From a virus: 35,487 nucleotides of DNA. The translations under genes and the position numbers were made by a program. Of the stretch, positions 1,722 to 24,563 are shown one piece after another; the stretch's first letter is position 1; each line of letters begins with the position of its first letter. Location of the stretch: positions 1 to 35,487 of the IMG/VR virus record IMGVR_UViG_3300023179_000284. One strand, 5' to 3'. The notes under the pieces were generated by a model that was not told the DNA's origin, did no database searches, and saw only the letters and a program-made list of their open reading frames with translations.

Positions 1722-1891
1722 AATGCAAAGATCATCCTGATGCACCACACGGGTTTGATCGAAATGCTTCACATAGCTTACATAGGTATGTCTGCGAGTG
1801 TGAGTTTTGGGAACCCCCGTTAACACCAAAAGATTTTTTGCTTTCAAACTACAACGTTCGTGACATTTGTCAGGACAATGATGATTGGTAA
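1718..1891 (+). CDS. Small Cys/His-rich hypothetical protein, 57 residues
   Basis: The GTG start at 1718 is seven bases after GGAGG (1706-1710) and overlaps the previous stop as GTGA. The product begins MKCKDHPDAPHGFDRNASHS and has a CxC pair (VCECEF) plus several His residues, so a small metal-binding site is possible. It ends with an acidic tail (DNDDW). The palindrome at 1861-1872 lies inside its coding sequence, over codons for R-D-I-C-Q. No known family. Promoter P1 starts just after its stop. Confidence 0.55.
   Translation: MKCKDHPDAPHGFDRNASHSLHRYVCECEFWEPPLTPKDFLLSNYNVRDICQDNDDW
1861..1872. promoter_or_regulatory. Palindrome TGACATTTGTCA, copy 1
   Basis: First copy of the TGACA-WW-TGTCA palindrome family. 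It lies in the end of the 57-residue gene, 24 bases upstream of the -35 of promoter P1. An operator role is inferred from position and repetition. Confidence 0.6.
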
Positions 1892-1896
1892 AAAAT

Positions 1897-1925
1897 TTGA
1901 CTTACCTACTTTTTTGTGGTATAAT
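1897..1925 (+). promoter_or_regulatory. Promoter P1, extended -10 sigma70 type
   Basis: The -35 is TTGACT (1897-1902) and the -10 is TATAAT (1920-1925), with a 17-base spacer. A TG lies one base upstream of the -10 (TGGTATAAT), giving an extended -10. It sits in the only sizeable gap of this region, 112 bases, before the MoxR-like gene, and is flanked by two copies of the palindrome. The leader is about 75-80 bases. Confidence 0.85.
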
Positions 1926-1954
1926 ATAATATAGTCGTAAATGTATCTGTAGTA

Positions 1955-1965
1955 CCTGAGTCAGG
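1955..1965. repeat. Short palindrome CCTGAGTCAGG
   Basis: An 11-base inverted repeat in the P1 leader, ten bases before palindrome copy 2. It shares the CCTGA/TCAGG outer arms with some family members but not the TGACA/TGTCA core. It may be a degenerate site or form alternative RNA pairing with copy 2. Confidence 0.35.
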
Positions 1966-1974
1966 CGGGATTCC

Positions 1975-1986
1975 TGACAATTGTCA
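1975..1986. promoter_or_regulatory. Palindrome TGACAATTGTCA, copy 2
   Basis: A perfect 14-base palindrome when the flanks are included (CTGACAATTGTCAG, 1974-1987). It lies in the P1 leader, ending ten bases before the GAGGAG ribosome binding site of the MoxR-like gene, where it could act as an operator or as an RNA hairpin near the start. Confidence 0.65.
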
Positions 1987-2009
1987 GAAGTGATTAGAGG
2001 AGTTTGAAC

Positions 2010-3086
2010 ATGTCAGAAGTTTCTTTCGGTAAATCCATCACACTCAAGCAAGCAGCTATGCTTATCAAGCACAACCCCGAGACTAGGTTCCTGCTTCAAG
2101 GCGAGCCTGGGATCGGCAAGTCTTCATTGCTTGAGTCGATCGCTGCCGATCTGGATTGTGACTATGCGTATATTGACGTACCCAATATGGATTTGGGTGA
2201 CATCGCAATGCCTGTGGTCGATCACGAAACAAAGACGACGCGCTATTACCCGAACGCTCGCTTCAAGATTCACGAGAAGAAGCCCTTGGTCATCATGCTC
2301 GACGAGTTTACGAAGGGGGCCGAGCCGGTCAAGAACATGCTGCACCCCATGCTAGAGAAGAAGAATCCACGCTTGGGTGATCTGCCGCTACCTAAAGATG
2401 GGCCTCAGCAGACGATCGTGTTTCTCACGGGCAACTTGTCTTCCGACGGTGTGGGCGATAACTTGAAAGCGCATAGTCGTAACCGTATCGTGCCGCTAAC
2501 AATCAGCAAGCCCAATGCCGATGAGTGGATCGAGTGGGGTATCAACAACGGGATCGAGCCCGAGGTACTTGCTTGGGTCCGTCAGTTTCCTCAAGTGTTG
2601 GCAAGCTATCGTGATGGGGATCAATCCGAGAATCCGTACATCTACAACCCGAAAAAACCCCAAGCTGCGTTTGTATCGCCGCGCTCGCTTGAGACTGCTA
2701 GCTTCATCGTGCGTAGACGTAAGCATTTGGACGTTGACAGTTTGATCGCAGGTCTTAGTGGTGCGTTGGGCGAGGCAGGTTCGCGGGATATGCAAGCCTA
2801 TATTGATTTCTCTGACCAGCTATCGCCGTGGGAAGTGACGATCGCTCATCCTGATACGACTCCTGTACCTACGAGTGCAGGTGCTTGTGCCATTGTGGTG
2901 TTTGGTGCAATCGCTCGCATCACTAAGGACACGATCGGTCCATTCATGCAGTACTTGGAGCGGTTCGAGCCCGAGTGGCAAGCTGTGTTCGCAATCAATG
3001 TAGCCAAGACTCCAAGCAAGCAGAGCATTGCTTTTTCGAGTAAAGCGTTTGCTGCGTGGGTCGCTAAGAACCAAGACCTTTTGTGA
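2010..3086 (+). CDS. MoxR-like AAA+ ATPase
   Basis: A 358-residue AAA+ ATPase. Walker A is GEPGIGKS (residues 31-38), Walker B is LVIMLDE (93-99), and a sensor-1-like FLTGN is near 138-142. MoxR-type ATPases act as ring-shaped remodelers, usually with a von Willebrand A (VWA) partner. Here a VWA protein follows one gene later, which supports the call. The ATG at 2010 has GAGGAG seven bases upstream; an in-frame TTG at 2004 is only one base from it and is not used. First gene of the P1 unit. Its target is unknown; a role in remodelling a host or phage complex is inferred from the family. Confidence 0.9.
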   Translation: MSEVSFGKSITLKQAAMLIKHNPETRFLLQGEPGIGKSSLLESIAADLDCDYAYIDVPNMDLGDIAMPVVDHETKTTRYYPNARFKIHEKKPLVIMLDEFTKGAEPVKNMLHPMLEKKNPRLGDLPLPKDGPQQTIVFLTGNLSSDGVGDNLKAHSRNRIVPLTISKPNADEWIEWGINNGIEPEVLAWVRQFPQVLASYRDGDQSENPYIYNPKKPQAAFVSPRSLETASFIVRRRKHLDVDSLIAGLSGALGEAGSRDMQAYIDFSDQLSPWEVTIAHPDTTPVPTSAGACAIVVFGAIARITKDTIGPFMQYLERFEPEWQAVFAINVAKTPSKQSIAFSSKAFAAWVAKNQDLL

Positions 3087-3112
3087 GAAAACAGAAGATA
3101 TAACCAACGAGC

Positions 3113-3124
3113 TGACAAATGTCA
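3113..3124. promoter_or_regulatory. Palindrome TGACAAATGTCA, copy 3
   Basis: Sits in the gap between the MoxR-like gene and the next gene, just before its AAGGA ribosome binding site. The flanks extend it to CTGAC-AAAT-GTCAG, which in RNA could form a five-base stem with a four-base loop. Confidence 0.6.
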
Positions 3125-3140
3125 GGGAAGGAAATTGAAT

Positions 3141-3440
3141 GTGTACGCACCAATAAAAATAAAAAACTGGGACGATATACCGCACGAGTGGTTGCCTGTG
3201 TTTGATGTGGTTAGGCGTTTACATGGTTACTACTCTGTTGACCTGGAGAAGAGAGCTTTCAATTTCAGTGAGCTTGCACCAGCGTATCGGTTAAAACTTT
3301 TCAGGTTCCGCAGAGCTACGGGTAAGAGAGAGCTAATCAATGTGTTTGAAGATACGCACGAGGCGTTAGCCATACTGTTATTGTTACAAGGTGTAGTCGA
3401 AGACGAAATCAAGGAGTTGAACAATGAACGAAGAACGTAA
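3141..3440 (+). CDS. Hypothetical protein, 99 residues
   Basis: No family recognised. It starts MYAPIKIKNWDDIPHEWLPV and has a charged helical middle (APAYRLKLFRFRRATGKRELINVF) followed by a hydrophobic helix (HEALAILLLLQGVVEDEI). The GTG at 3141 is eight bases after AAGGA and is preferred over a TTG at 3135. It lies between the MoxR-like and VWA genes and overlaps the VWA gene by 17 bases, so it may be an accessory of that pair. Confidence 0.65.
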   Translation: MYAPIKIKNWDDIPHEWLPVFDVVRRLHGYYSVDLEKRAFNFSELAPAYRLKLFRFRRATGKRELINVFEDTHEALAILLLLQGVVEDEIKELNNERRT

Positions 3441-4629
3441 ATTGAAGAAGGCGAAGATCTCGCTCATGCGTGATCCTCGGTTCGCACTGTGGCAAGGCAT
3501 CATGATGGTGGGTAAGACAATTGTCAGCGATGACATCCCCACTGCTGCGACGAACGGACGCGACGAAATCTATGGTCGCAAGTTTATTAAAGAGCTATCC
3601 GAGCAGGAGCTTAACTTTGTGGTCTTGCACGAGAACCTGCACAAGGCGTTTCGGCATCTAACCACATGGCGCAAGCTGTTTGATGAAGATAGGAACCTGG
3701 CTAATGCTGCTTGCGACTACGTCATTAATCTCAAGCTGAGAGACATGGATCCTTCTGGGCGTACGTTGAAGTTTCCTACGTTCAAGGAAGGTAAGTATGC
3801 GGATAAAGAGATGGGTCTGGTCGATGAACGCTTTCGCAACATGCACGTTAAGCAGGTGTTCGACATTCTGAAGCAGGAGAGAAAGGCTCGCGGCGGTGGT
3901 GATGGTGATGGGCCGATGGGGTTCGATGAGCATGATTGGGGTGGCGCGAAAGAGATGACTGAGGAAGAGAAGCAGCAACTTTCTCGCGAGATCGACCAAG
4001 CACTACGTCAGGGGCAGATGGCTGCGCAGAAGATTGCAGGTAAGGGCGCAGGTGGTATCGACCGTGACATTCAGGAGATGCTCGACCCCAAGTTGGATTG
4101 GCGCGAAGTGCTGCGTGAGTTTGTGAAATCAACCTGCCACGCGAAAGATGCGAGTAGCTGGCGCAAAGTAAATAGGAGGTACTTGAGTACGGGTGTGTAC
4201 ATGCCGACGTTGATCGGCGAGAAGGTGGGTCACTTGGTAGTTGCAGTCGATACGTCAGGGTCAATACAAGGTACAGAGCTTGCCGAGTTCCTTGGTGAGA
4301 TTAAGGGTATCGCAGAAGAAGTAACTCCCGAGCGTGTGGACTTATTGTATTGGGACAACGCTGTTGCTGCGCACGAGGAGTATGAGCTGTCGAACGTGGA
4401 CTCGATCATTACATCAACTAAACCTCGCGGGGGTGGTGGCACTTCGCCTTCGTGTGTATCGGCTTACTTAAAGGAGAAGAACATTGTTCCGGAATGCGTG
4501 GTGGTATTCACAGATGGGTACGTGGGTTCGGACTGGGGTTCTGATTGGAGTGCTCCGCTGCTATGGGTTATCACGCAGAACGCCTCGGCTGTGGCAGAGC
4601 ATGGCAAGACAATTCATATGCCTCACTGA
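3424..4629 (+). CDS. VWA protein with putative metallopeptidase domain (DUF2201-like)
   Basis: A 401-residue protein with the two-part architecture of DUF2201 proteins. The N-terminal part carries a zinc-peptidase-like HENLH (residues 69-73). The C-terminal part is a von Willebrand A fold with a MIDAS metal site: DTSGS (276-280), GGGGTSPS and a downstream VVFTDGY. A charged, Gly-rich linker (near residue 155) separates them. MoxR ATPases and VWA proteins commonly work as pairs; the VWA part binds partners through the metal site and the ATPase remodels them. AAGGAG precedes ATG 3424. Whether the HENLH site is catalytic is unknown. Confidence 0.88.
   Translation: MNEERKLKKAKISLMRDPRFALWQGIMMVGKTIVSDDIPTAATNGRDEIYGRKFIKELSEQELNFVVLHENLHKAFRHLTTWRKLFDEDRNLANAACDYVINLKLRDMDPSGRTLKFPTFKEGKYADKEMGLVDERFRNMHVKQVFDILKQERKARGGGDGDGPMGFDEHDWGGAKEMTEEEKQQLSREIDQALRQGQMAAQKIAGKGAGGIDRDIQEMLDPKLDWREVLREFVKSTCHAKDASSWRKVNRRYLSTGVYMPTLIGEKVGHLVVAVDTSGSIQGTELAEFLGEIKGIAEEVTPERVDLLYWDNAVAAHEEYELSNVDSIITSTKPRGGGGTSPSCVSAYLKEKNIVPECVVVFTDGYVGSDWGSDWSAPLLWVITQNASAVAEHGKTIHMPH
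3515..3526. promoter_or_regulatory. Near-copy of the palindrome (AGACAATTGTCA), copy 4
   Basis: One mismatch to the TGACA-WW-TGTCA core, inside the VWA coding sequence about 90 bases from its start. It could be a weak site or chance. Confidence 0.3.
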
Positions 4630-4645
4630 TAGATGGAGAGAGAAG

Positions 4646-4894
4646 ATGATCGTTATTAACCTTGGGTATTCAGCAAACTATGTAGTTAACAAGGAAGATG
4701 CAATGACGTTGATCGGCATCCTTGAACGTGCTTTGGTGTGGGAAGAGAAGTATGTGTCGAAAGACAACTCAGCAACGGGTAAGTCGCACTACTTGTATCA
4801 CGCTTACCCTAGCGAAAATATGCCGAGCATGAAGATTGTCCCCAACGATTTGTATGACATGGCGAAACTAGCAGGTAAGCCAATCGGTGAGTAG
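4646..4894 (+). CDS. Hypothetical protein, 82 residues
   Basis: No family recognised. The ATG at 4646 follows a purine-rich GGAGAGAGAAG tract shortly after the VWA stop. The product starts MIVINLGYSANYVVNKEDAM and is a mixed alpha/beta small protein with a central YLYHAYPSENMPSMKIV. The longer frame reaching back to 4484 is a shadow over the VWA gene. It sits between the VWA and DUF3150-like genes. Confidence 0.65.
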   Translation: MIVINLGYSANYVVNKEDAMTLIGILERALVWEEKYVSKDNSATGKSHYLYHAYPSENMPSMKIVPNDLYDMAKLAGKPIGE

Positions 4895-4902
4895 TTCAAA
4901 GC

Positions 4903-4914
4903 TGACATTTGTCA
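4903..4914. promoter_or_regulatory. Palindrome TGACATTTGTCA, copy 5
   Basis: Lies in the 52-base gap before the DUF3150-like gene. Flanks give CTGAC-ATTT-GTCAG (4902-4915). No convincing promoter accompanies it. Confidence 0.6.
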
Positions 4915-4946
4915 GGTTGTTAAATCAGTGTAATTAGGAGAATGAG

Positions 4947-5810
4947 ATGAGCATTAGTGCTTCAGCAGTATTGGTAGAACTTAACATCAGTGTGTGGCCC
5001 GCCTCGAAGATCGACAAGGAGGTCACTGAGCGTACTAACAAAGATGCGGCTGCTGTGTCCGACGCATCACAAACCAAGAAGAACCTGTTTGCAGGTACGT
5101 CGCTACGCAAAGACATCGAGAAGTACGCAGCGCGTATCCGTTTGTACCACAACCTCCACACCCTCCCGTGGGCAGATAAAGGTGAGCGCCTTCTGCCGAC
5201 CAAGATGTTCATGGACTACAAGATAAGCATGACGACGTTCAAGGACACGTTCGAGGACATGTGCGAAGAATTTTTCAATGCGTACCCTGCACTAGTTGCG
5301 CAAGCTCCACTTAATTTGGGTAAGTTGTATCGGGCCGAGGACTATCCCCCGCTCGAAGAGGTACGTCAGAAGTTTGGGTTCCGTCAGGCGATTAGTCCGT
5401 TACCCGAGTCGGGTGACTTTCGTTTAGACGTTCCGTCGAATGACTTGATAGAGATGCAATCAGAGTACGAGGCGAAGTTTCAAGAGCGTCTTGCCGATGC
5501 GATGCAAGCTCCTTGGCAGCGGCTGCACACCATGCTGACTAATATTTCTACCAAGTTAACGGATACGAAAGAAGAGGAAGTAGAAGGCAAGAGCAAGCGT
5601 TACCACGACTCCCTAGTGATGAATGCGCTAGACCTCTGCTCGCTGCTGACTAAGTTGAATGTGACTAACGATCCGAAACTGGAAGAGGCTCGCAGACAGT
5701 TGGAGATTGCCATGACGCAAACGAACATAGAGGCAATCAAAGACAGCCCGAACGAGCGGGAAGTTGTGAAGTCTCGCGTAGATGCAATCCTTAACAAGTT
5801 TTCCTGGTAA
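4947..5810 (+). CDS. DUF3150-like protein, partner of the MoxR/VWA pair
   Basis: A 287-residue helical protein. The N-terminal pattern (LVELNISVWPASKIDKEVTE..., then KKNLFAG, then HTLPWADKGERLLP, then EFFNAYPALV, AEDYPPLEEVRQKFGF and GDFRLDVP) matches my memory of the DUF3150 family, which has no known function. It has no catalytic motif that I can see; the C-terminal half is coiled-coil-like. AGGAG precedes the ATG. Its place after MoxR-like and VWA genes suggests a third component or substrate adaptor of that system; this is inference from neighbourhood. Confidence 0.75.
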   Translation: MSISASAVLVELNISVWPASKIDKEVTERTNKDAAAVSDASQTKKNLFAGTSLRKDIEKYAARIRLYHNLHTLPWADKGERLLPTKMFMDYKISMTTFKDTFEDMCEEFFNAYPALVAQAPLNLGKLYRAEDYPPLEEVRQKFGFRQAISPLPESGDFRLDVPSNDLIEMQSEYEAKFQERLADAMQAPWQRLHTMLTNISTKLTDTKEEEVEGKSKRYHDSLVMNALDLCSLLTKLNVTNDPKLEEARRQLEIAMTQTNIEAIKDSPNEREVVKSRVDAILNKFSW

Positions 5811-5819
5811 GAGGGCATG

Positions 5820-6740
5820 ATGAATAACTTACTTGATAAGCCTAACGTACGTCTTAGTATTGGGTTAGCGTCGCAGCACCCTGGGATCGTTCTACTTGCA
5901 GATAAGGCAGAATGTACAGGTGGGCGCGAAGTAATCCATAACATGCTGATCGACATGTTGAACGAGCTGCGCAAAGAGAAACCCACATGGCATTTTGTGA
6001 TTAACAAGATAAATTCATTCGATATTCCAGGTGTTCATTTGATTGGGTCGTTTGATATTGAGTACCAAGGGGGCATCCTTGGTACTGTCAACATAACAGC
6101 AAGAAGGTCTGGGTACAGCTACGTGAATGTATATGCGATCAGCAACGACAGGATTGAGAAAAGCTACGAGCGAAATAGCGATTACAAAACTCAAGACTTG
6201 AAGCGAGCTGTTGCGCGTATCCGTAAAACCTTTTTCCCAATTACACCGTTGGAAAACTTAGCGGAGGCTATGAAAGGTGCAAGGACTCAAGCGCAGCAAT
6301 TATCGTGGGATGCGGGTGGAGAGTTAGAAAGCAAGAAAAATAGTGTCGAGAAGCTAGCCAAAGAGTTTATTGTAGGTGTTGGGTGGCCTTTGTTTCTTGA
6401 ATACGTGCATAGCGATAGCATATCCCCCGCAGAAAGGAAAAAAATACTAGATAACCTCACTGTTCAGGTAGAGCTGCAAGAGAGGAAAGATGCTATTACA
6501 AAAATACATGATGCAGTTGATGGTAACGAGTGCACGATTGTTATCAGGACCGCGCATGAGAATTATATTGTCTGTGGTATGGGTAGACAGGACTATGTGT
6601 TCAAGACCGATGCAGAACTTGACGAGGGGATGAGAATGAAACTAGGTCTGCTCAAGCTAGTAGATAAGGGCGCTCTGATAAGTGACGTAGGTATTAGAGT
6701 GAACGAGACTACGTTTGCGTTGACAAACGAGGTACAATAA
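5820..6740 (+). CDS. Hypothetical protein, 306 residues
   Basis: No family recognised. The N-terminal half contains several beta strands (IPGVHLIGSFDIEYQGGILG, then VNITARRSGYSYVNVYAISN), and the C-terminal half is helical with a final strand-rich part (CTIVIRTAHENYIVCGMGRQ). It starts MNNLLDKPNVRLSIGLASQHPG. Two ATGs are adjacent at 5817 and 5820; GAGGG (5811-5815) is nearer a usable distance to the second. It follows the DUF3150-like gene by nine bases and precedes the next gene by one base, so it belongs to the same transcription unit. Confidence 0.75.
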   Translation: MNNLLDKPNVRLSIGLASQHPGIVLLADKAECTGGREVIHNMLIDMLNELRKEKPTWHFVINKINSFDIPGVHLIGSFDIEYQGGILGTVNITARRSGYSYVNVYAISNDRIEKSYERNSDYKTQDLKRAVARIRKTFFPITPLENLAEAMKGARTQAQQLSWDAGGELESKKNSVEKLAKEFIVGVGWPLFLEYVHSDSISPAERKKILDNLTVQVELQERKDAITKIHDAVDGNECTIVIRTAHENYIVCGMGRQDYVFKTDAELDEGMRMKLGLLKLVDKGALISDVGIRVNETTFALTNEVQ

Positions 6741-6741
6741 A

Positions 6742-7011
6742 ATGTCTGAACACAATGTTACAGTTAGATCTAACCCACACTTTAGAAAACGAGATGATGG
6801 GGGGCCGTTTATTCTAAGCGACCCGAGGTTTAGGTACGTGCCTTCAGCCGCTACTGATATTAGAGAATCCTGGAAGCGGTATGGTTGGACGCCCATAGAA
6901 CAAAGGAATGGAGCAGAACATGAAGCCCCAAAAGTCCCGTTTTCAGGCAGTGCCTTGCGACTATCCGGAGGGGGAGAATATAAAGACTCGGAAGAAGGGA
7001 TTGATAACTGA
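6742..7011 (+). CDS. Hypothetical protein with long overlap into the next gene
   Basis: An 89-residue frame starting MSEHNVTVRSNPHFRKRDDG. The first 55 residues look natural (FILSDPRFRYVPSAATDIRESWKRYGWTPI). The last 34 (after EQRN) run over the next gene in another frame and are Gly/Ser/Glu-rich, so they may be passenger sequence. Either the two genes truly overlap by 92 bases or one indel has moved this gene's stop. No family recognised. Confidence 0.5.
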   Translation: MSEHNVTVRSNPHFRKRDDGGPFILSDPRFRYVPSAATDIRESWKRYGWTPIEQRNGAEHEAPKVPFSGSALRLSGGGEYKDSEEGIDN

Positions 7012-7153
7012 CGAGGAACTTGCGCGTAGCTGGCCGTTTGGCAACGTAGACCCTAGACGATGTGAGTGGTACGTAAGGGAGAAGAAAACCAAGCGGACAG
7101 CAAAGGAAGACCTCCTGACAAATGTCAGGTCTGTAGGTGAAGCACCTTTTTAG
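6920..7153 (+). CDS. Hypothetical basic protein, 77 residues
   Basis: The ATG at 6920 follows GGAG (6910-6913) by six bases. The product starts MKPQKSRFQAVPCDYPEGEN and continues with GLITDEELARSWPFGNVDPRRCEWYVREKK. It is small, basic and unrecognised. Its beginning overlaps the end of the previous frame by 92 bases. Palindrome copy 6 is inside its last codons. Confidence 0.6.
   Translation: MKPQKSRFQAVPCDYPEGENIKTRKKGLITDEELARSWPFGNVDPRRCEWYVREKKTKRTAKEDLLTNVRSVGEAPF
7116..7127. promoter_or_regulatory. Palindrome TGACAAATGTCA, copy 6
   Basis: The longest-armed copy: CCTGAC-AAAT-GTCAGG (7114-7129), a six-base stem if it folds as RNA. It lies 35 bases upstream of the ribbon-helix-helix gene. 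Confidence 0.65.
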
Positions 7154-7161
7154 GAGTAGCT

Positions 7162-7359
7162 ATGGAAGAATCCTTGGGGCAACCCCTAAAGAAAAGGCGA
7201 GGCCTTGGTAAGAAGCCCGCTATGGTTTGTACGAGTTTGCGAATACCTAGAGAAGTGATGAGGTATTTTGAGCAGTTTCCAAACAAGCAAACACGTATGA
7301 GAGAAGTACTTACCAATTTTGTTAAACAGCAACAAGGAGCTGACAATGAGTCTGCGTGA
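7162..7359 (+). CDS. Ribbon-helix-helix protein, BrnA-antitoxin-like
   Basis: A 65-residue protein. The segment MVCTSLRIPREVMRYFEQFP with following TRMREVLTNFV has the strand-helix-helix pattern of ribbon-helix-helix DNA-binding proteins and resembles the C-terminal part of BrnA-type antitoxins (LR-P-EV--YF...QTRINEVLR). Such proteins are dimers that bind palindromic operators with paired beta strands. No BrnT-like toxin gene is next to it. It sits between palindrome copies 6 and 7, so it is a candidate binder of that family; this is inference. Its start is not supported by a strong ribosome binding site (TAGGAG is ten bases upstream). Confidence 0.65.
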   Translation: MEESLGQPLKKRRGLGKKPAMVCTSLRIPREVMRYFEQFPNKQTRMREVLTNFVKQQQGADNESA

Positions 7360-7783
7360 ACGAGTGATTGAGTATGTTACGGCTAACCCAACAGCAAAAG
7401 CAGCAGAGGTCGCTGCCGCATGTGGCACAACTGCACAAGCTGTGTATCAGATCAAGTCCGATGCAGGGTTGTCTAAATCTCGGAAGGTTAAAGCCGCTAA
7501 GTCGAAAGCCAAGAAAGTTGTAGCAGCGAAACCAAAGAAAGATAAGGCTACTGTAGTAGAAGCTGATAAGGTCAACCCGCCCCACTACAAAGTCGGCGGT
7601 ATCGAGGTGATCGACTACATCAAGGCCAAGCTGACTCCCGAGGAGTTCCGTGGATACCTGAAGGGCAACGTGCTCAAGTACGTCAGCCGAGAGGGTCACA
7701 AGAACGGTGACACAAAAGATTTGGAAAAAGCCAATTGGTATATTGGCAGGTACATCGAAGAAGGGCATAATACTATTGGTTGA
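7346..7783 (+). CDS. DUF3310 protein with N-terminal HTH-like segment
   Basis: A 145-residue protein in three parts. Residues 1-43 look like a small helix-turn-helix (ERVIEYVTANPTAKAAEVAA, then TTAQAVYQIKSD). Residues about 44-75 are a Lys/Ala-rich linker. Residues about 80-140 match DUF3310: VNPPHYKVGGIEVIDYIKAK, GYLKGNVLKYVSREG, DLEKANWYIGRYIE. DUF3310 is common in phages and has no firm function. AAGGAG precedes the ATG by six bases. It is the last gene of the P1 unit. Confidence 0.85.
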   Translation: MSLRERVIEYVTANPTAKAAEVAAACGTTAQAVYQIKSDAGLSKSRKVKAAKSKAKKVVAAKPKKDKATVVEADKVNPPHYKVGGIEVIDYIKAKLTPEEFRGYLKGNVLKYVSREGHKNGDTKDLEKANWYIGRYIEEGHNTIG

Positions 7784-7799
7784 TTCGTAATTCCTCTCC

Positions 7800-7811
7800 T
7801 GACATTTGTCA
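7800..7811. promoter_or_regulatory. Palindrome TGACATTTGTCA, copy 7
   Basis: Lies between the DUF3310 stop and the terminator, with only four bases before the terminator stem. Flanks give CTGAC-ATTT-GTCAG (7799-7812). Confidence 0.6.
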
Positions 7812-7815
7812 GTTC

Positions 7816-7839
7816 AAGCCACCTTCGGGTGGCTTTTTT
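7816..7839 (+). terminator. Rho-independent terminator of the P1 unit
   Basis: AAGCCACC (7816-7823), a TTCG tetraloop (7824-7827) and GGTGGCTT (7828-7835), running into a six-T tract to 7839. An eight-base GC-rich stem with a stable UUCG loop and U-tract is a strong intrinsic terminator. It separates the P1 unit from promoter P2. Confidence 0.95.
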
Positions 7840-7847
7840 ATTGCCTG

Positions 7848-7875
7848 TTGACAGTGTCAAATGTTATGTTATAAT
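7848..7875 (+). promoter_or_regulatory. Promoter P2, extended -10, with -35 inside a palindrome
   Basis: The -35 is TTGACA (7848-7853) and the -10 is TATAAT (7870-7875), both consensus, with a 16-base spacer and a TG one base before the -10. The -35 forms the left arm of a perfect palindrome TTGACA-G-TGTCAA (7848-7860), whose arms are the same half-sites as the palindrome family, with one central base instead of two. It directly follows the terminator and drives the DNA-metabolism genes. Confidence 0.92.
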
Positions 7876-7904
7876 GATCCTCCGAAAACGAGTTGGAGGG
7901 TTAG

Positions 7905-8252
7905 ATGAGTACACTTTTTGATGTTATTGTCACAGAAGATAATTTGCTTGTTTGTCCTACGTGCAATGAAACATACCTGCATCAACAGAACACCACAATC
8001 TTTGAACGGCACGAAGACGAAGAGATAACAACTGTTATTGCGCAAAACGATCGCACGGTCCAAGTCTCAGATTTCCGATCTGAAGATACGTGTAATCCAA
8101 GCTACCGTCGGCACGGTATGCTGATTGAGTTTAAGTGCGAGCACTGCCATAATTGGGGCGCAGATGGGCCTTCTGATGAATACAGAACCCCGCACCGACT
8201 AGCTATCTACCAACATAAAGGCAACACGTTTATGGAGTGGCAAGTTGGCTAA
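7905..8252 (+). CDS. Zinc-ribbon-like hypothetical protein
   Basis: A 115-residue protein with two CxxC knuckles, CPTC (residues 17-20) and CEHC (78-81), the usual layout of a zinc ribbon with a long insert. The core is otherwise beta-rich and acidic. No named family. It is the first gene after promoter P2, with a strong GGAGG before its ATG, so it is probably well expressed. It overlaps the nuclease gene that follows. Confidence 0.75.
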   Translation: MSTLFDVIVTEDNLLVCPTCNETYLHQQNTTIFERHEDEEITTVIAQNDRTVQVSDFRSEDTCNPSYRRHGMLIEFKCEHCHNWGADGPSDEYRTPHRLAIYQHKGNTFMEWQVG

Positions 8253-8559
8253 GACCCCAGAAGCGAAAGTAAAAGACCTCGTTAAAAAAATTCTTAAAGA
8301 AGAGGGCATTTACTACGCTATGCCTATTGGCACAGGGTACGGCAACTCAGGTGTGCCTGACTTTCTTTGTTGCGTGCAAGGGAAGTTTGTGTCTATCGAA
8401 GCAAAGGCAGCTAACAACAAGCCGACCGAATTACAACTAAAAAACATGCGCGACATCGAAGCCGCAGGTGGACTGACAATTGTCATCAACGAAACGAGTG
8501 TTGCTGTCCTTAGAGGGTATATCAAACTAATCAAGGAGAAAAAAGTTGGAAATGTCTGA
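8245..8559 (+). CDS. VRR-NUC domain nuclease
   Basis: A 104-residue stand-alone nuclease of the VRR-NUC branch of the PD-(D/E)XK superfamily. Active-site pattern: GVPD (D39), then IEAK (E52, K54), then TELQ (Q64). Family members cleave structured DNA in a metal-dependent way and in phages are often next to SNF2 helicases and polymerases, as here. The TTG start at 8245 is placed seven bases after GGAG and overlaps the previous gene; no internal ATG would keep the first helix. Confidence 0.9.
   Translation: MAKTPEAKVKDLVKKILKEEGIYYAMPIGTGYGNSGVPDFLCCVQGKFVSIEAKAANNKPTELQLKNMRDIEAAGGLTIVINETSVAVLRGYIKLIKEKKVGNV
8474..8485. promoter_or_regulatory. Palindrome TGACAATTGTCA, copy 8
   Basis: An exact copy inside the VRR-NUC coding sequence; the rightmost member of the family. 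As it lies in coding sequence, function is less certain. Confidence 0.4.
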
Positions 8560-8890: not shown

Positions 8891-10708
8891 ATGCAGATAC
8901 TAACGGTTGACTTTGAGACCTACTACAGCAAGGACTTCAGTCTGTCCAAGATGACCACGGAGGAGTACATTCGTGATGGGCAGTTTGAAGTCATTGGTGT
9001 ATCGGTTCAAGTCGATGACGGTGAGCCCGAATGGTTCAGCGGTAAAACAGAAGACCTATACCAGTTCCTTAAGAAGTACAACTGGGGGAGTAGTTTAGCG
9101 TTAGCCCACAACGCTATGTTCGATGGTGCGATCCTTGATTGGATCTTTGACATCAGACCGAAAGGTTGGTTGGACACACTGAGCATGGCCCGAGCATTAC
9201 ACGGGACTGAAGTTGGTGGTAGCTTAGCGGTACTAGCTAACTACTATGGCATAGGGCAGAAGGGTGATGAAGTCGTTCATGCAATGGGTAAACGACGAAT
9301 TGATTTTTCTCCTGCTGATCTTGCTCGGTATGGCGCTTATTGTTCCAATGATGTTGCTCTTACTTATGATCTTTTTGGACACATGAGCAAGGGGTTCCCC
9401 CCTGTAGAGCTACGCTTAATCGACCAAACCATACGGATGTTTACCGAGCCGCAACTAAGGCTCGACGTGCCGGTCTTAAAAGAACACCTTCTTTTTCAGC
9501 AAACAAGAAGGAAAGAGCTACTCGAAAACTTTGACGAGCGCACACTGATGAGCAACCCCAAGTTTGCCGAGCTGCTTGAGACATGGGGTGTGGAACCTCC
9601 GATGAAGGTAAGCCCGACAACAGGCAAAGATACTTATGCGTTTTCAAAAACAGATGAAGCGTTCAGGGCATTACTTGAACACGAGAACGTAGAAGTTCAG
9701 GCACTTGTAGCTGCTCGGCTAGGGGTTAAGTCAACACTTGAGCAAACACGGACGGAGAGGTTCTTAGGCATAGCGTATCGCGGTGCGCTTCCAGTACCCC
9801 TGCGGTATTACGCTGCGCATACAGGCAGATGGGGAGGTGACGACAAGTTAAACCTTCAAAACCTCCCAAGAACGTCCCCGCTGAAGAAGGCGATCATAGC
9901 CCCCCGAGGGTTCAAGATTGTTGACTCAGACTCATCGCAGATTGAAGCACGTACGCTTGCATGGTTAGCCGAGCAAGATGATTTGGTCGAGGCGTTTGAT
10001 AAAGGTGAGGACGTGTACAAGATCATGGCTTCAGCTATCTATAACAAACCCATTAACGACATAACCAAAGACGAACGCTTTGTCGGCAAGACGACAATCC
10101 TTGGTGCGGGGTACGGCATGGGGGCTAAGAAGTTTCAGGCTCAGCTTAAGAACTTTGGCGTTTTTGTAGAGTTGGAAGAAGCACAGAGGATCATCGACAC
10201 CTATCGTTCCACATACCCAAAGATAAAGCAGCTATGGTTCGATGCAGGCGAAGCGTTATCGTCGATACTAAGGAATCAGCAAACGTACATGGGTCGTAAC
10301 GACTTGTTATCCGTCGAAGGTGAACGAGGCATTCGGCTACCCAACGGGCTGTACATCAAGTATCCCAACCTGCGTAACTTCGTAAACGACAGCGGTAAGA
10401 CCGAGCTAGTCTACGATACAAAAAAGGGTAAGCAAATCGTACCCAATAGGATATACGGTGGAAAAGTTGTGGAGAACGTATGTCAAGCCTTAGCGCGAAT
10501 TATTATCGGCGAGCAGATGCTTTTAATCGCTAAAAAGTATAGAGTTGTGATGACGGTACACGATGCCATAGCATGCTTAGTCCCCGAGATGGAAGCAGAC
10601 CGAGGCATAGAGTTCGTCGAATTATGTATGAAAATTCGCCCGTCATGGGCTTCTGAGCTACCCCTTAATTGCGAAGCGGGGAGTGGTTATTCTTACGGTG
10701 ATTGTTAG
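8891..10708 (+). CDS. Family A DNA polymerase with 3'-5' exonuclease
   Basis: The phage replicative polymerase, 605 residues, without a 5' nuclease domain. The N-terminal DEDDy exonuclease shows DFET (D7, E9), HNAMFD (N74, D78) and YCSND (Y150, D154). The polymerase domain has motif A DSSQIEAR (catalytic D347), motif B R396-x3-K400-xxx-L404-G-xx-YG, and motif C VHDA (H557, D558). Two substitutions stand out: the Tyr after the motif A Asp is Ser, and the position equal to E. coli Phe762 is Leu404, the variant reported as common in aquatic virus PolA. It is compact compared with T7 polymerase (704). Confidence 0.97.
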   Translation: MQILTVDFETYYSKDFSLSKMTTEEYIRDGQFEVIGVSVQVDDGEPEWFSGKTEDLYQFLKKYNWGSSLALAHNAMFDGAILDWIFDIRPKGWLDTLSMARALHGTEVGGSLAVLANYYGIGQKGDEVVHAMGKRRIDFSPADLARYGAYCSNDVALTYDLFGHMSKGFPPVELRLIDQTIRMFTEPQLRLDVPVLKEHLLFQQTRRKELLENFDERTLMSNPKFAELLETWGVEPPMKVSPTTGKDTYAFSKTDEAFRALLEHENVEVQALVAARLGVKSTLEQTRTERFLGIAYRGALPVPLRYYAAHTGRWGGDDKLNLQNLPRTSPLKKAIIAPRGFKIVDSDSSQIEARTLAWLAEQDDLVEAFDKGEDVYKIMASAIYNKPINDITKDERFVGKTTILGAGYGMGAKKFQAQLKNFGVFVELEEAQRIIDTYRSTYPKIKQLWFDAGEALSSILRNQQTYMGRNDLLSVEGERGIRLPNGLYIKYPNLRNFVNDSGKTELVYDTKKGKQIVPNRIYGGKVVENVCQALARIIIGEQMLLIAKKYRVVMTVHDAIACLVPEMEADRGIEFVELCMKIRPSWASELPLNCEAGSGYSYGDC

Positions 10709-17933: not shown

Positions 17934-20900
17934 TTACCTATTCTTACCAACCCCCGAGACTTCAACGTCTATCTTGCGTTTTGCCGCCATCTCCTCGGCT
18001 CGCTTTTCAAGCCGCTCGGCTAACTTGTCCGCAGCAGTCCCAACCAACGGCGCACTCTTTTCGGTAATCGCTACCCCTGCTACAGCACTTGCTCTACGTT
18101 CAGCTTTGCTGCTTAAGGAATCAACAATCGTGTCGGCATCGATCGCATAAGAAGGATACTTGCGGTTGAACTTAGACACTTCGTCTTCAATGATCTTGTC
18201 GAACATCGCATCGCCTGCCTCGGATTCTTTTTTGAACTGCACGTTCAAACGAGTGAGGATAAGGTTGCGCTTGTTCAGAATCTTCTGCTCGACACCATTT
18301 AGCTTGAAGTTGTTGACCTGCGTGATTGCGTTGATGTCAGGATTGAAACCCAGCACCCTACCGATCAATTCACCAGTCTTCACATTATCTTTTGTAACTA
18401 AGTCAGCACCAGCAGACGTTTTAATGCCTTCGTTCATCATTTTGTTAGCCATGACCCAGTTGCGTATGGCTGCTGGCGACATGCGTTCCCACATTTTTTG
18501 GTAGTCGCCCTCGGTGTAGGCTTGATACGCATCGGCCATAGACAGTCCAAGGCTCGCAGTCGGCCCCATGTTCTCAACCATGAAAGCAATTGCAGAGTCT
18601 CTAGCGGTCTTGGTCTCTTTGCTATCCCTACCCCACATATCGTTAAGCTGCGTACGAGAGGCAATATCCCAACCCGTCATAGCGTTAAAGATTCCACGGT
18701 CGATAACATCAGATACAGGCACACTTCCAATAGACATGCCGCCGAGAGCTTCAGGAATTTGAACGGTGCGCAACCAAGTCTCAAGGTCCATTTCACGCAA
18801 CTCATCCGGCCAATCATCGTCATCGGACATCTTGCTCCACAACCATCCAAGCAAGCCAACGATCGAGCTAAACATAGCCATACCGGGTACACCAGCAACC
18901 AATGCGCTCATACCCATAACGCCAAAGAATTTCTTGATAGCTACCGCTTTACCTTCTTTGTTCATGAAGGGGATCATGCGCATGAGGTTGGTTCCAAGCA
19001 GCAGCGTCATCTGCAACGGGTACATCTTGAACTGGAACAACACCTTCCCTAAACCCTGCTGCATCCAAGTCGGTCGGTTAGCTATGTCGTAGTTACCAAG
19101 TGCTTCGTTTGTATCGCTGACAGCTTGTCTGACTGCATCTTCATAGTCTAGCCCACGACCAATACCTAAGTTGAAAGACGCAAGATAAACAGCTTCCCTG
19201 GTAAGCCGCTCGATGTTATGAAGCAACCCAGCGATAAGAACATTAGCTAACCGCTTCCCTTTACCTGGAATGCTGTCAAAGTCGTCGGTCGTTACACTCT
19301 TGTACCCGTAAACCAAAGACGAATAGGTAGACTGCTCAACCCCACGCTCAACCATCTCAGCAACAGCACGTTTCTGTAAAGGGGTTAAACCTTTAGCGTT
19401 AGCTATGCTAGGTGGTACATAAGAAGTCGTACCGTCTGGGTTCTCTCTAACGATTCCATACTGGTTAATAAACGTCAGCATCTTGCCAAGTTCTTTAGCA
19501 GCTTTAGTCATACTGCCGTGATTTGCCCCAAGCACAGGCACACCAGAAATCAACAAGCTGAAAGGCTGGATCAGCGCAGAAGATATACCCGTCATGTAGT
19601 AGATGTAAGACAGACGGTTAGCTACTCCCGACACCGCATCAAGGAAGCCACCTCTATTACCTGCAAGTGCTGCGTTGACTCGACGCTCAGCCTCATCTAC
19701 AAACGGAGAAAGCTCTTCACGCTCGGCGATCGAATCCTTTGCAGCCGACACTGCATTACGCAGTTGTGGGGAGAACTCAAGCCTAGCTAGTTGGACAGCT
19801 TGCTTAGCAGCAACCGAAGCAATGTTTTGCGTCAGGTCAACACTAAAACCAATGCGTCCTTTACGATGGATGAACTGCCTACGGAAGCTCTGCTCCGGCA
19901 TCGTGGTTAAGTAAAGCTGATAGATCGAATCCTTCAAAGCCTCACGAGCAGCAGTTGCTTCCGCACGTTGATCGACTTCGTTCATACCACTAGCAACAGG
20001 ATTGAAATCACCTTCGTCGATTGCCTTGAACACAGCTTGTAGCAACGGAGCCGCATCTAAGGAATCAAGTCTTAGATCACGAATGTTATTGCCGAGCTTA
20101 AAGTTACTGGAATCAAGTTCTACATTAAGCGCGTCGGGGTTACCTGGGTTAAGTTCTTCAGCAAGTTTCTTTGCTGCATTGTTACGAGCCCCGCGAGTCT
20201 TGAAGATATAAAACTCAGGTTGGTCAGCGTACAACCCTTCGTTGATACGTAAATAGAAATTACCGTCAGGACGAACAAGCGGGAAGAATGGACGAATGCG
20301 GTTCTCCACCTCAAACGTTTGCCGAATCATTGCCATCAAGTTAGTCTTGGTCTCTTGCGAAACCCCTTGAAGGTTTTGGATTTGCTTATCGAGCAGGTTG
20401 TTGTACAGATTGATAACCGACTCGTAGTAGTTCCTGATGCGCACGTATAGCTTTTGCCCTGTGGGACCAAGAGCTAAAAAGTTCTTATCGAAGTTTGGAT
20501 TACGGCTAGGCAGCTTAGGGTTTGACGGGTCGTACTCGGCGAGCGTAGTGTCGTAGATAAGATTTTCTAACTTCACACGAAGCGTCTTATCTTGTTTATA
20601 TCCACGTTTTACTTCGTTGATAAGATCAACCGCACCACGCATAAACTGCTGCGACGTACCAAACATCTGCCCAACAAGATCATTAATTTCCTTGATTCTG
20701 GGTACTTCATCTTTTGACCATTCAGCCAAAAACTGTAAGGTAGGCATACGGACGAAGGCAGTCTTTGCCGCACCAGACATGTTGTCCCAAACTTCATCCA
20801 AGTATTCACGAACAGCCAAAGGATTACGAGCAAGCTGAGTGAGCTTAGTTCCTTCCATAAGCTCAGTCCCACTACGAGACCTAGCTACGATTTCCTCGGC

Positions 20901-23900
20901 TTTCCTTTGCTCACGCACCAAACGTTTAAGGCTCTTCTTCTCGACAGGCTCCGGTTCGGATTTGTACTTCCTTTGCTCAAAAGCCTTCAGTCCCTGTTCA
21001 GCTATACGCATACCAGGAGTTTTTTGTGCTGATAGCAACTTATCAGTTATGTCGATTAGCTCTGCCAGCGCGTTGTATTTACTTTCTCCAAGCCCAAAAG
21101 AACGCAAAAGAATGCGCACAAAAGACGAGAACCCAGTTTGCGTTTTTTTGGGGGGAAGTGCTGACAAAAAGGCTTGGAAGTCCGCATCAGACATACCATA
21201 CGCCAAGAACTCATTGGGGTCGTCAAATATATCGTAACCACCATTTTCGTTTGCGGTGGCTTCAACAACCCTGCTTACTTCTACCGGAAGGTCTCCTTTA
21301 TTTTTTAAGTATTCATAGAATTGCCCACTCTGAATACCTAAATCTCTTAAATCTCGAACAAGTGTTTGGAGCTTTGAATCTTTGCGCCCACCTAAACTAG
21401 CAGCCGACCCAAGCGCAATCTTTGTAGATGTTGCAGCATGCAGAGCTTCGTGAAGGATGGTTGTGTTGTTGATCCCTTGGTCTTTACCAAAACTTTTACC
21501 GCGAACGTAAATGGTCCTGTTCTCTGGTACGTAAATACCCCGTGCTCGGTTCCAACTGTCTATGTTCTTTTCCAACACAGGAGGCAGCGCATCACCGACT
21601 TCGATGACAACAAACTTAACTCCATTGAGGAAAGGCCGAAGCCGCATAGCTAGCGCACTTTCAAACGCATCTCCTATCTTTGCGATCAAGCTAACTGCTT
21701 GGGAAGCGTTTTGCGCCTTACTTAACTTATCTTCAGGAGGACCAACGGTTGTCTCAGTCTGAGACGGTAGTACTTCTTTCTTAGCTACAGCCGCACGATT
21801 AGCGTCTTCCTCTTTGATCTTCCTACGGAAAAACTCTATAGCTTGAGGAGCTAACCCAAGGTTCTTGATCGCTTCTTTGACGCGCTTACCGACAGCCGTA
21901 CCACGCAGGTTGGGGTTTGCTTCCAACCGTAGCAATTGTTTGATTGCGTTTTCCCGTAGCTTGCCCTGTTGGTCTCGGATACTTTCTTCCGACTCACCTT
22001 TGCTTCCTAGAGCTTTAACAAGTTCGGCATCATCAACTTCTGCCTGAGAAAGCGTAAGATCACCTTGAGCTTTTTTTAGCGCACGATCAGCCCTAGCCTT
22101 CTCAGCCTGAGCTTTATTCTTTTCCTCTGCTTTCTTCTCCGCTACTTCAGGAGCTAGCTTTTTGCGCCCACGCCCAGTCTTTTTTCTTACTTCTTCTGAA
22201 GAAGGTAGCCGAGTGATGAGTGGGGGTCCGACAAATTCTTCTGTGGCAGACTCTGCCACTTTTGTTCCTTCAGGAGGCGCTGCTGCTCCCTCTTCTTTTG
22301 CTTGCTTGGCTTCGGTGGGCGTAGTGGCACTAGGGGTTCCTTTTTGTTTGTTAACTTCAGCATCAAATGCGCGATCGGCTGCATTCAGTAAAGCATCCCA
22401 ATCATCACTTTCTTTAAATCCTTCTTCTACTAGCGTATCCGCCATGTTCGTGCGGTAGGAATCTAAAGCGGCATCAAGGTCTCCACCGTATTCACCGAGT
22501 TGGTCAAATGCAGTACTTGCGTTTGTACGAGCAATTTGTTGAGCCTTAGCTTTTTTAGCTTCAAATGCTGTGTCACGCTCTTCTTCAGTTAATGGTGTCG
22601 GCTTCGCCTCTTCTCTTCGTACAGGTCCTGCAACAGATTCTTCAGTAGAAACCATTCCACTTGGTTCAGCCCCTTCAACTCCTGCGGGGGCAAGAGTTGG
22701 TTCGGGTCTGCCAGAAATTTCAAAGCTCTTTCCAACTGCTGGGATGACAGGTCCTGTAACACTTGGTTCTCCTTCCGCTTGTGCTTCTTCATCAGCACGT
22801 CTACGAGCAACAGCAAACGCTTGGTCAGGTGGCATACCACCAATCATTAAATCTTGCGCAATTTCATCGGTACGACTTGTTACGGGACCCTGAGCAATAT
22901 CTGCCGCTTTTTGAATAATCCCATCATCTACTTCACGAGTAGCAACATCCAGCGCACGGGACTTAGTGAACCCCGACAATTTAACAAGCTGCTCGGCACG
23001 AGCCTCAATCATCTCTTTTCGATCTTCTGCTGCAAGAACTTTGGGAGACGCTACTTCATCTTCCCCTTCCTTTTTGATCGAAGGCTCAACCTTTTCCGTA
23101 GGTGCAGTAGTTGCCGATACCGTCGGTTCGCCCCGAGCTTTTGGCTTTTCTTGCCGCTCAAGCTCTTCAGCTTCACGTCGCTTCAATTCAGCCGACGCAT
23201 CCAGTATTTCTTGTGCGGTTAGTGGACGATCTGTGGGTAAGCCTAGAGCTTCACGAGTTTTTCTAACAGACGCGGACAAACCCCTAGCACCACCAGTCAT
23301 AAGGCCAGTCTGAGTGATTGTTTGTAAAACAGTATCTTGAAGCTGGTTGAGCAGCTTCATTAGTGTCGGCGTTTTATCGACCCCCGAAGCTGCGTCAGTG
23401 AAAAACTGCCCTGTAGTAGTAAACGACTCTCCAGGTATTTCTTTTGCAAGAGCTTTACCAAAATACTCAGTTAGTTTTTCCGGTGGTATGCCTCTAGCAA
23501 CAGCTCTAATACCTGAAAGCGTTTCTTTCAACCCACCGTAACGCGCACCAAGAATTTCAAAAGCAGTAAATGCAGAAGCTCTTGCCGCAGCCTCCATTGG
23601 AGTTAAGTTAACTTCTCTCCCAGTTGCATATTCCTGCCCAAAAGTTTGTAGCCCCAGATACATGAGTGGCGCACCCAAACCACCAGAAAGAGTACCACTA
23701 ACTAAAGTAGGAGCCTGTTGGAGGATTGAATTAATAGCAGCTTCTAAAATCTGAGCAGGTCTTCCTTTACCTTTACCCATATTCTCTTGGAATTGGGAGG
23801 CATTTTTTGCCGCATCTGTATAAAATTCAGCAGCGCGATCGTCACCTAGTAACTCCGCCGAAAACATTCCGAGTCCAGAAAACCCTTGTTTTGTCGCTTG

Positions 23901-24563
23901 TTTTGCAAGCGTAGCAGCCCTGCTAACAGCCCCTTCTTTACCAGCTTCCTGTGCCTCAATAACTCGTTGAGGAGTTTCCGTTAGTTGTACAATAGAAGAA
24001 GGCATTTCACCAGCTTTTGCCGCACGTTGAGCTTCCATCCTCGCAATTTCAGGGCGAAGTCCTTGGGCCGTTAGCGCAGCTTGTCTTTGCTCTCTAGTCG
24101 TACCGAGTTGCTGTACTTGTTTGGATTTTGTCTCAAACTCTTGCTGTTGCTGATCGATGGTTTTTGCTACTGACCCAACCCAATCATCACGGCTAATCAT
24201 CTCCAGGCGTTTTTCAGGAGAAGCGGCATCATAAGCAGCGCGAACTGCTGCAAACATTTCTTCAGTAACCGGAGCCCCTCGGCGTTCTATTCTTGGTTGA
24301 ACGGGGGGTTTAAAGTCCTTCATTACGCTAGGAGCAGTTGTTCTCCCTTCTTCAAAAGCCGGAGCAGCCTCAAGCCCTTCTATTTCAGAAAGCCCACGTA
24401 GTAATTCTGTTTTTGGTTCTGCTTTAACTTCTGCTTTTGGTTTTGCAGCGGGTGCAGCCGTACCTCCAAACTGCTTGGCAAGCTCCGCAAAGTCTACGGG
24501 TGGGGGTGCAGACGTAGCCGTACCACCAAATTGTTTGGCAAGGGCAGCGTAATCAGTCGCCAT
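17934..24563 (-). CDS. Giant polyvalent internal virion protein with HEALH peptidase motif and LPD38-like region
   Basis: 2,209 residues, 6.6 kb, last gene of the leftward arm. The N-terminus has two near copies of LAKQFGGTA. Residues up to about 960 are low-complexity, charged and coiled-coil-like. A zinc metallopeptidase motif HEALH is at 1038-1042, with a later NEFLAYG (E1118) as possible third ligand. The final part (about 1800-2110: RPTWMQQGLGKVLFQFKMYP, then LNDMWGRDSKETKTARDSAI) resembles the LPD38 domain of polyvalent proteins; a hydrophobic stretch lies near 1870-1905. Such proteins are packaged and enter the cell with the DNA. ATG overlaps the upstream stop (TAATG). Confidence 0.85.
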   Translation of the reverse strand: MATDYAALAKQFGGTATSAPPPVDFAELAKQFGGTAAPAAKPKAEVKAEPKTELLRGLSEIEGLEAAPAFEEGRTTAPSVMKDFKPPVQPRIERRGAPVTEEMFAAVRAAYDAASPEKRLEMISRDDWVGSVAKTIDQQQQEFETKSKQVQQLGTTREQRQAALTAQGLRPEIARMEAQRAAKAGEMPSSIVQLTETPQRVIEAQEAGKEGAVSRAATLAKQATKQGFSGLGMFSAELLGDDRAAEFYTDAAKNASQFQENMGKGKGRPAQILEAAINSILQQAPTLVSGTLSGGLGAPLMYLGLQTFGQEYATGREVNLTPMEAAARASAFTAFEILGARYGGLKETLSGIRAVARGIPPEKLTEYFGKALAKEIPGESFTTTGQFFTDAASGVDKTPTLMKLLNQLQDTVLQTITQTGLMTGGARGLSASVRKTREALGLPTDRPLTAQEILDASAELKRREAEELERQEKPKARGEPTVSATTAPTEKVEPSIKKEGEDEVASPKVLAAEDRKEMIEARAEQLVKLSGFTKSRALDVATREVDDGIIQKAADIAQGPVTSRTDEIAQDLMIGGMPPDQAFAVARRRADEEAQAEGEPSVTGPVIPAVGKSFEISGRPEPTLAPAGVEGAEPSGMVSTEESVAGPVRREEAKPTPLTEEERDTAFEAKKAKAQQIARTNASTAFDQLGEYGGDLDAALDSYRTNMADTLVEEGFKESDDWDALLNAADRAFDAEVNKQKGTPSATTPTEAKQAKEEGAAAPPEGTKVAESATEEFVGPPLITRLPSSEEVRKKTGRGRKKLAPEVAEKKAEEKNKAQAEKARADRALKKAQGDLTLSQAEVDDAELVKALGSKGESEESIRDQQGKLRENAIKQLLRLEANPNLRGTAVGKRVKEAIKNLGLAPQAIEFFRRKIKEEDANRAAVAKKEVLPSQTETTVGPPEDKLSKAQNASQAVSLIAKIGDAFESALAMRLRPFLNGVKFVVIEVGDALPPVLEKNIDSWNRARGIYVPENRTIYVRGKSFGKDQGINNTTILHEALHAATSTKIALGSAASLGGRKDSKLQTLVRDLRDLGIQSGQFYEYLKNKGDLPVEVSRVVEATANENGGYDIFDDPNEFLAYGMSDADFQAFLSALPPKKTQTGFSSFVRILLRSFGLGESKYNALAELIDITDKLLSAQKTPGMRIAEQGLKAFEQRKYKSEPEPVEKKSLKRLVREQRKAEEIVARSRSGTELMEGTKLTQLARNPLAVREYLDEVWDNMSGAAKTAFVRMPTLQFLAEWSKDEVPRIKEINDLVGQMFGTSQQFMRGAVDLINEVKRGYKQDKTLRVKLENLIYDTTLAEYDPSNPKLPSRNPNFDKNFLALGPTGQKLYVRIRNYYESVINLYNNLLDKQIQNLQGVSQETKTNLMAMIRQTFEVENRIRPFFPLVRPDGNFYLRINEGLYADQPEFYIFKTRGARNNAAKKLAEELNPGNPDALNVELDSSNFKLGNNIRDLRLDSLDAAPLLQAVFKAIDEGDFNPVASGMNEVDQRAEATAAREALKDSIYQLYLTTMPEQSFRRQFIHRKGRIGFSVDLTQNIASVAAKQAVQLARLEFSPQLRNAVSAAKDSIAEREELSPFVDEAERRVNAALAGNRGGFLDAVSGVANRLSYIYYMTGISSALIQPFSLLISGVPVLGANHGSMTKAAKELGKMLTFINQYGIVRENPDGTTSYVPPSIANAKGLTPLQKRAVAEMVERGVEQSTYSSLVYGYKSVTTDDFDSIPGKGKRLANVLIAGLLHNIERLTREAVYLASFNLGIGRGLDYEDAVRQAVSDTNEALGNYDIANRPTWMQQGLGKVLFQFKMYPLQMTLLLGTNLMRMIPFMNKEGKAVAIKKFFGVMGMSALVAGVPGMAMFSSIVGLLGWLWSKMSDDDDWPDELREMDLETWLRTVQIPEALGGMSIGSVPVSDVIDRGIFNAMTGWDIASRTQLNDMWGRDSKETKTARDSAIAFMVENMGPTASLGLSMADAYQAYTEGDYQKMWERMSPAAIRNWVMANKMMNEGIKTSAGADLVTKDNVKTGELIGRVLGFNPDINAITQVNNFKLNGVEQKILNKRNLILTRLNVQFKKESEAGDAMFDKIIEDEVSKFNRKYPSYAIDADTIVDSLSSKAERRASAVAGVAITEKSAPLVGTAADKLAERLEKRAEEMAAKRKIDVEVSGVGKNR
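24472..24560 (-). repeat. N-terminal LAKQFGGTA repeat in the giant protein
   Basis: The first 30 residues of the giant protein contain YAALAKQFGGTA and FAELAKQFGGTA, separated by a Pro-rich linker. The DNA of the two copies differs at several third positions, so the peptide rather than the DNA is conserved. It may be a short binding motif. Confidence 0.75.

Follow-up and report, generated by a model that had tools for sequence, protein, structure and literature searches.

A distributed palindrome array in a phage early region as candidate operators of a single dimeric regulator

Results

The uncultivated-phage record IMGVR_UViG_3300023179_000284 of IMG/VR, whose 35,487 bases were analysed in full and are referred to here as the window, carries a family of short palindromes, TGACA-WW-TGTCA, with the left end of the record lying 1.9 kb upstream of the first site and the array stopping just short of a DNA polymerase gene. 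Between these limits lie a promoter (P1), a MoxR-like ATPase gene, the gene of its partner, which we take to encode a VWA/metallopeptidase-like protein, a small ribbon-helix-helix (RHH)-like gene, a terminator-like hairpin, and a second promoter (P2) (Table 1). P1 and P2 are the top two promoter matches in the region, with P2 the best, and P1 sits between palindrome sites 1 and 2.

The palindrome TGACAWWTGTCA occurs in seven exact copies, all at positions reported in an initial annotation of this DNA, against 0.03 expected, with none of 100 dinucleotide-preserving shuffles reaching seven. A whole-record motif search found no exact copy outside positions 1861–8485, in the remaining 27 kb of the window. 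Allowing a mismatch added the near copy at 3515, also noticed earlier, the rest being background, with the sole one-mismatch copy past 8485 at position 12347. Counting the near copy as the fourth, copies 2, 3, 5, and 7 (1975, 3113, 4903, and 7800) lie in gene gaps and copy 1 just upstream of P1, as had been described, and the half-sites observed around the P2 −35 box form a perfect one-base-spacer palindrome. The proposed extension of the flanks to CTGAC-NNNN-GTCAG is indeed frequent, with both flanking bases (C..G) present in five of the seven exact copies. The array had been assigned to one transcription unit region; the confinement stands, but the sites cover two units, one running from P1 to the terminator at 7816–7835 and the other from P2 onward.

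Table 1. Promoters, palindromes, and genes along the array of the window
Feature	Position	Strand	Remarks
Palindrome site 1	1861..1872	no strand	TGACATTTGTCA; 25 bp upstream of P1 −35; in 3' end of open reading frame (ORF) 1718-1891
Promoter P1	1897..1925	+	TTGACT (1897)-17-TATAAT (1920-1925), 11/12; TG ahead of −10; orthologous to relatives' first-gene promoter
Extra half-site GTCAG	1960..1964	+	Between P1 and site 2; GTTAG in relatives; from sequence and alignments
Palindrome site 2	1975..1986	no strand	TGACAATTGTCA; 114 bp from site 1; gene gap
MoxR-like ATPase	2004..3086	+	Likely start ATG at 2010; first gene past P1 in the window
Palindrome site 3	3113..3124	no strand	Gene gap past ATPase stop codon, close to which relatives also carry a site
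ATPase partner gene	3424..4629	+	phrog_1314
Near copy	3515..3526	no strand	AGACAATTGTCA; one mismatch; within gene 3424..4629
Palindrome site	4903..4914	no strand	Gap ahead of gene 4947; same gene preceded by a site in L001 and L034
Palindrome site	7116..7127	no strand	3' end of ORF 6908-7153, ahead of RHH gene
Small RHH-like protein	7162..7359	+	Not favoured as palindrome binder
Palindrome site	7800..7811	no strand	TGACATTTGTCA; gene gap, directly before terminator; orthologous sites in relatives
Terminator-like hairpin	7816..7835	+	AAGCCACCTTCGGGTGGCTT, then T run
Promoter P2	7848..7875	+	TTGACA-16-TATAAT, 12/12
One-base-spacer palindrome	7849..7859	no strand	TGACAGTGTCA (TGACA-G-TGTCA); over P2 −35 box
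Palindrome site	8474..8485	no strand	Within ORF 8245-8559 (endonuclease-like)
DNA polymerase	8891..10708	+	Directly after array

Scanning viral contigs with the MoxR-like ATPase yielded 80 loci, in which all dyads with five-base halves were counted. Most of these loci carry TAACA-N1-TGTTA or TAACA-N2-TGTTA instead of TGACA, typically in 5–22 copies and usually extended to CTAACA..TGTTAG, and the relatives with a TAACA array have the MoxR/VWA/polymerase block in common with the window. In records of ~60 kb the TAACA sites occupy one early region of ~10 kb, with few strays among the matches listed. Across 22 phages, 106 sites lie in gaps, 83 straddle a gene end, and 150 fall within genes, in a region that is 12.7% noncoding by a rough gene call; gene ends are enriched for sites, and the spacing between sites is more even than random (mean coefficient of variation 0.62).

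Some of these sites are orthologous. One lies between the DUF3310 gene and the terminator, and is TGACATTTGTCA in the window and TAACA-N1/2-TGTTA in L001, L006, L024, and L032; P1 aligns with the first-gene promoter of the relatives (best with L220, z 9.4); and in the alignments the half-site between P1 and site 2 changes from GTCAG in the window to GTTAG in the relatives. The pre-terminator site, the pair around P1, and this third half-site thus show that the half-site letters changed jointly, and coordinated change at the same places is expected if a single trans-acting factor reads every site. The sites here have two-fold symmetry and change in concert over a genome, as would those of a generic operator array of a dimeric regulator.

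TGACA arrays occur in further phages. L246–L248 carry TGACATATGTCA arrays, which in L248 surround a divergent MoxR block. The early region of L245 is a different one and contains 20 TGACA-N1/2-TGTCA sites, two of which enclose a promoter-like sequence. No such array is present in the stretches read of isolated phages with related terminases (L253–L256) or of Pseudomonas phage KPP25 (L258).

The consensus of 846 non-redundant sites is symmetric and fades outward, with the inner A/T pair varying most in excess of background. When partners were shuffled within each phage, no covariation of the outer bases was seen (z 1.0 at ±1, followed by −2.2, −1.9, −4.1, and −1.7), and sites with one mismatch hold G.U and its mirror A.C equally often (8 vs 8), so that neither compensatory change nor a preference for G.U, as in an RNA stem, is apparent. 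The lack of flank covariation within a phage and of a G-U bias among mismatches indicates that the palindromes are sites in duplex DNA rather than RNA stems.

In the relatives, the gene adjoining the paired sites, the first in the array, encodes a protein of ~165 residues, ranging over ~155–200, of which there are two related types, A and B. The paired sites flank the first-gene promoter and lie 104–140 bp apart, with one outlier at 205 (57 loci with exactly two sites nearby), and a sigma-70-like promoter lies between them in most distinct examples. Of the 38 MoxR loci whose upstream sequence extends for 7.5 kb or more, protein and array are both present in 19 and both absent from 16, while the array alone is present in three (L053, L058, and L068) and the protein alone in none. 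Relatives with the same genes and no palindromes, named in the initial annotation as evidence that would tell against a regulon, therefore exist to the letter in these 16, which are also the loci that lack the first-gene protein. Using the protein itself as query raised the number of loci to 186, with some contigs fetched twice; these loci contain 1909 TAACA-type sites compared with six of the reversed pattern, and no locus is without a site, although 15 of the 186 hold just one or two, many of these being short contigs. Once redundant entries were filtered out, 40 of 41 type A proteins were accompanied by the N1 spacer and 34 of 46 type B proteins by N2.

In models of the first-gene protein (predicted local distance difference test, pLDDT, 78 and 84.7), helices predominate and a linker is disordered; searches by fold gave no confident match, and in particular none to a known family of DNA-binding proteins. 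No copy was found in 50,697 phage records, nor any relative in the bacterial genomes of genome_contigs, where one degenerate pattern was scanned, and no profile match links the protein to the 236-residue first gene of L247–L248. It is the best regulator candidate in the TAACA-type relatives. Three candidate binders from the window named in the initial annotation are not favoured: the beta-strands of the RHH protein at 7162 are equally similar in phages without the palindrome, the winged-helix matches of the protein at ~119 are weak, and the protein at 724–1317, which has a C-terminal sigma-70 region 4 domain, has no confirmed relative in viral_contigs.

Several other repeats were observed amongst these contigs. 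L030 and L031 have no TAACA array and hold several AGGGTTAACCCT-like palindromes together with a duplicated 169-residue first gene (4481–4990 and 5542–6051). Upstream of the MoxR gene in relatives without the palindrome lie ATTGTAAGGA repeats (L072 8958–9536 and L073 2890–3468) or repeated AAACGTAACA-like words (L022 6233–6750, L045 8020–8496, and L050 7157–7676). L068 (7982–14768), whose upstream region differs and in which no first-gene protein was found, mixes three copies of CTAACATGTTAG, which has no spacer, with nine sites of one-base spacer, and in L058 (1–7500) part of a TAACA array is joined to other minus-strand, tail-like genes, being either a recombinant or a misassembly. Two other phage contigs carry iteron-like tandem TGACA-NN-TGTCA at 39- and 36-base intervals (L240 5897–6064 and L251 521–712). 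Elsewhere in the window, positions 17934–24563 of the minus strand encode a 2209-residue protein with a weak LPD39 match.

Discussion

The palindromes are likely to be duplex-DNA operators of one trans-acting regulator, dimeric and most likely encoded by the phage, and they form an array distributed over the early region. Of the two forms of phage regulon envisaged in the initial annotation, operators of a dimeric regulator are favoured by the conserved positions of the sites, the joint switch of half-site and spacer, and the symmetry, whilst RNA elements acting on start sites are not borne out. In the window phage, two operators flank P1, the main promoter of the early region, and another covers the −35 box of P2, so bound regulator would repress initiation at both. 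The remaining sites, every ~0.5–1 kb at gene ends and within genes, run along the transcripts, which suggests hindered elongation or bridging: the bound regulator would act as a roadblock that slows or stops RNA polymerase, or the sites may be bridged together, with shutdown of the early region as the predicted outcome. In TAACA-type relatives the regulator would probably be the first-gene protein, which would hence be autoregulated. A more far-reaching proposal, which we offer from sequence comparison as a possibility rather than an expectation, is that in a virulent phage group a novel DNA-binding family encoded by the first gene silences its own early region via ~20 palindromes at gene ends and inside genes, with half-site and spacer rewritten jointly in different lineages.

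Several observations weigh against the operator interpretation. The first-gene protein has no Pfam match, and no convincing PHROG or PDB match, that would mark it as DNA binding, and for the model with pLDDT 84.7 Foldseek searches of PDB and BFVD yielded nothing at E ≤ 0.001, while VIA Z scores were below 5. The protein was not found in the 35 kb window, nor in the TGACA-type records L245 and L248, and L068, a partial record, has 12 sites without it. The spacer label changes five times on the first-gene tree and six times on the MoxR tree, with the result that co-evolution with the first-gene protein in particular is not separated from phage ancestry. Additionally, 44% of sites lie within genes, away from promoters.

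Silencing of phage transcription units from many sites is already known from temperate phages, and the array may likewise be a stoperator-like system by which a repressor silences a prophage. The L5 repressor of cluster A mycobacteriophages binds at least ~20 short sites, located within promoters as well as along transcription units (PMC9283540), a layout similar to the seven exact copies here and the 5–22 of the relatives; each L5 site, however, is an asymmetric 13-mer that follows the direction of transcription and is bound by a monomer, and such sites are spread genome-wide in temperate phages (PMC9283540), whereas those described here are palindromic, without orientation, and restricted to the early region of phages in which no integrase was found. 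In SPbeta, the repeated element SPBRE was likewise predicted in silico as a repressor site at several promoters under one master regulator, MrpR (PMC10516654), yet the fold of MrpR is that of a tyrosine recombinase and SPBRE lies in promoter regions (PMC10516654), whereas many sites here are within genes. Searches of 18 relatives (records of 60–67 kb, possibly incomplete) for tyrosine and serine integrases or resolvases (PF00589 and PF00239) and ParA-type ATPases (PF13614) found none, and the scan of bacterial genomes with one degenerate pattern, which gave no first-gene relative, likewise argues against a prophage; a lysogeny role is therefore possible but not favoured, and we regard it as fairly unlikely. 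That a protein of the host, be it a transcription factor or a nucleoid protein, reads the sites is also rather unlikely. One report describes sites of the host protein CtrA distributed in alphaproteobacterial phage genomes (PMC9437464), a precedent for regulator sites spread in this way, and the TGACA arrays of L245 and L246–L248, where the first-gene protein was not found, fit a host reader. These same arrays show that the layout extends beyond a single protein family. The CtrA sites as described there are read by the host, whereas the sites here go with a phage gene and differ between close relatives; hosts would have to differ in step with phage lineages, and the presence of sites at every first-gene-protein locus would be left unexplained.

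The even spacing and the many sites within genes are also consistent with an array for DNA handling (partition, replication initiation, packaging, or condensation) instead of transcription control, but the main promoters are flanked or overlapped by sites, gene ends are enriched for them, and no ParA was found in the relatives searched, making such a role improbable. More improbable by far, and largely refuted, is a role as RNA hairpins that affect start sites, stability, or processing. Folded singly, the window sites do reach about −5 to −10 kcal/mol, but the TAACA-type stem of L032 is weak as RNA (−1.9 kcal/mol), site 1 lies upstream of P1, and there is no Rfam match, in addition to the covariation and mismatch results above. 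Distant N4-like matches had suggested hairpin promoters for a virion RNA polymerase; these are also not favoured, since A/T use in the spacer is symmetric and the promoters are sigma-70-like.

A comparable array exists in culture. Rhizobium phage RHph_TM3_14A (L257, MN988472) has 29 TTACC-N5/6-GGTAA palindromes across 50 kb, 18 of them within genes, and resembles the phages described here in a spacer that varies by one base and in its related ATPase and DNA polymerase genes; it differs in its half-site, the genome-wide spread of its sites, and in that no first-gene homologue was found, and as a cultured phage it offers a bench model.

What distinguishes the present case from the temperate precedents is that the phages with this array layout have no detectable integrase, that the sites are symmetric and in many cases inside genes, and that the candidate regulator family is unmatched in library and fold searches. 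The natural series of sites, with TAAC or TGAC half-sites and spacers of 0 to 3 bases, together with the sequenced protein variants, amounts to a ready-made specificity-change experiment in which a regulator shifts jointly with its twenty or so sites.

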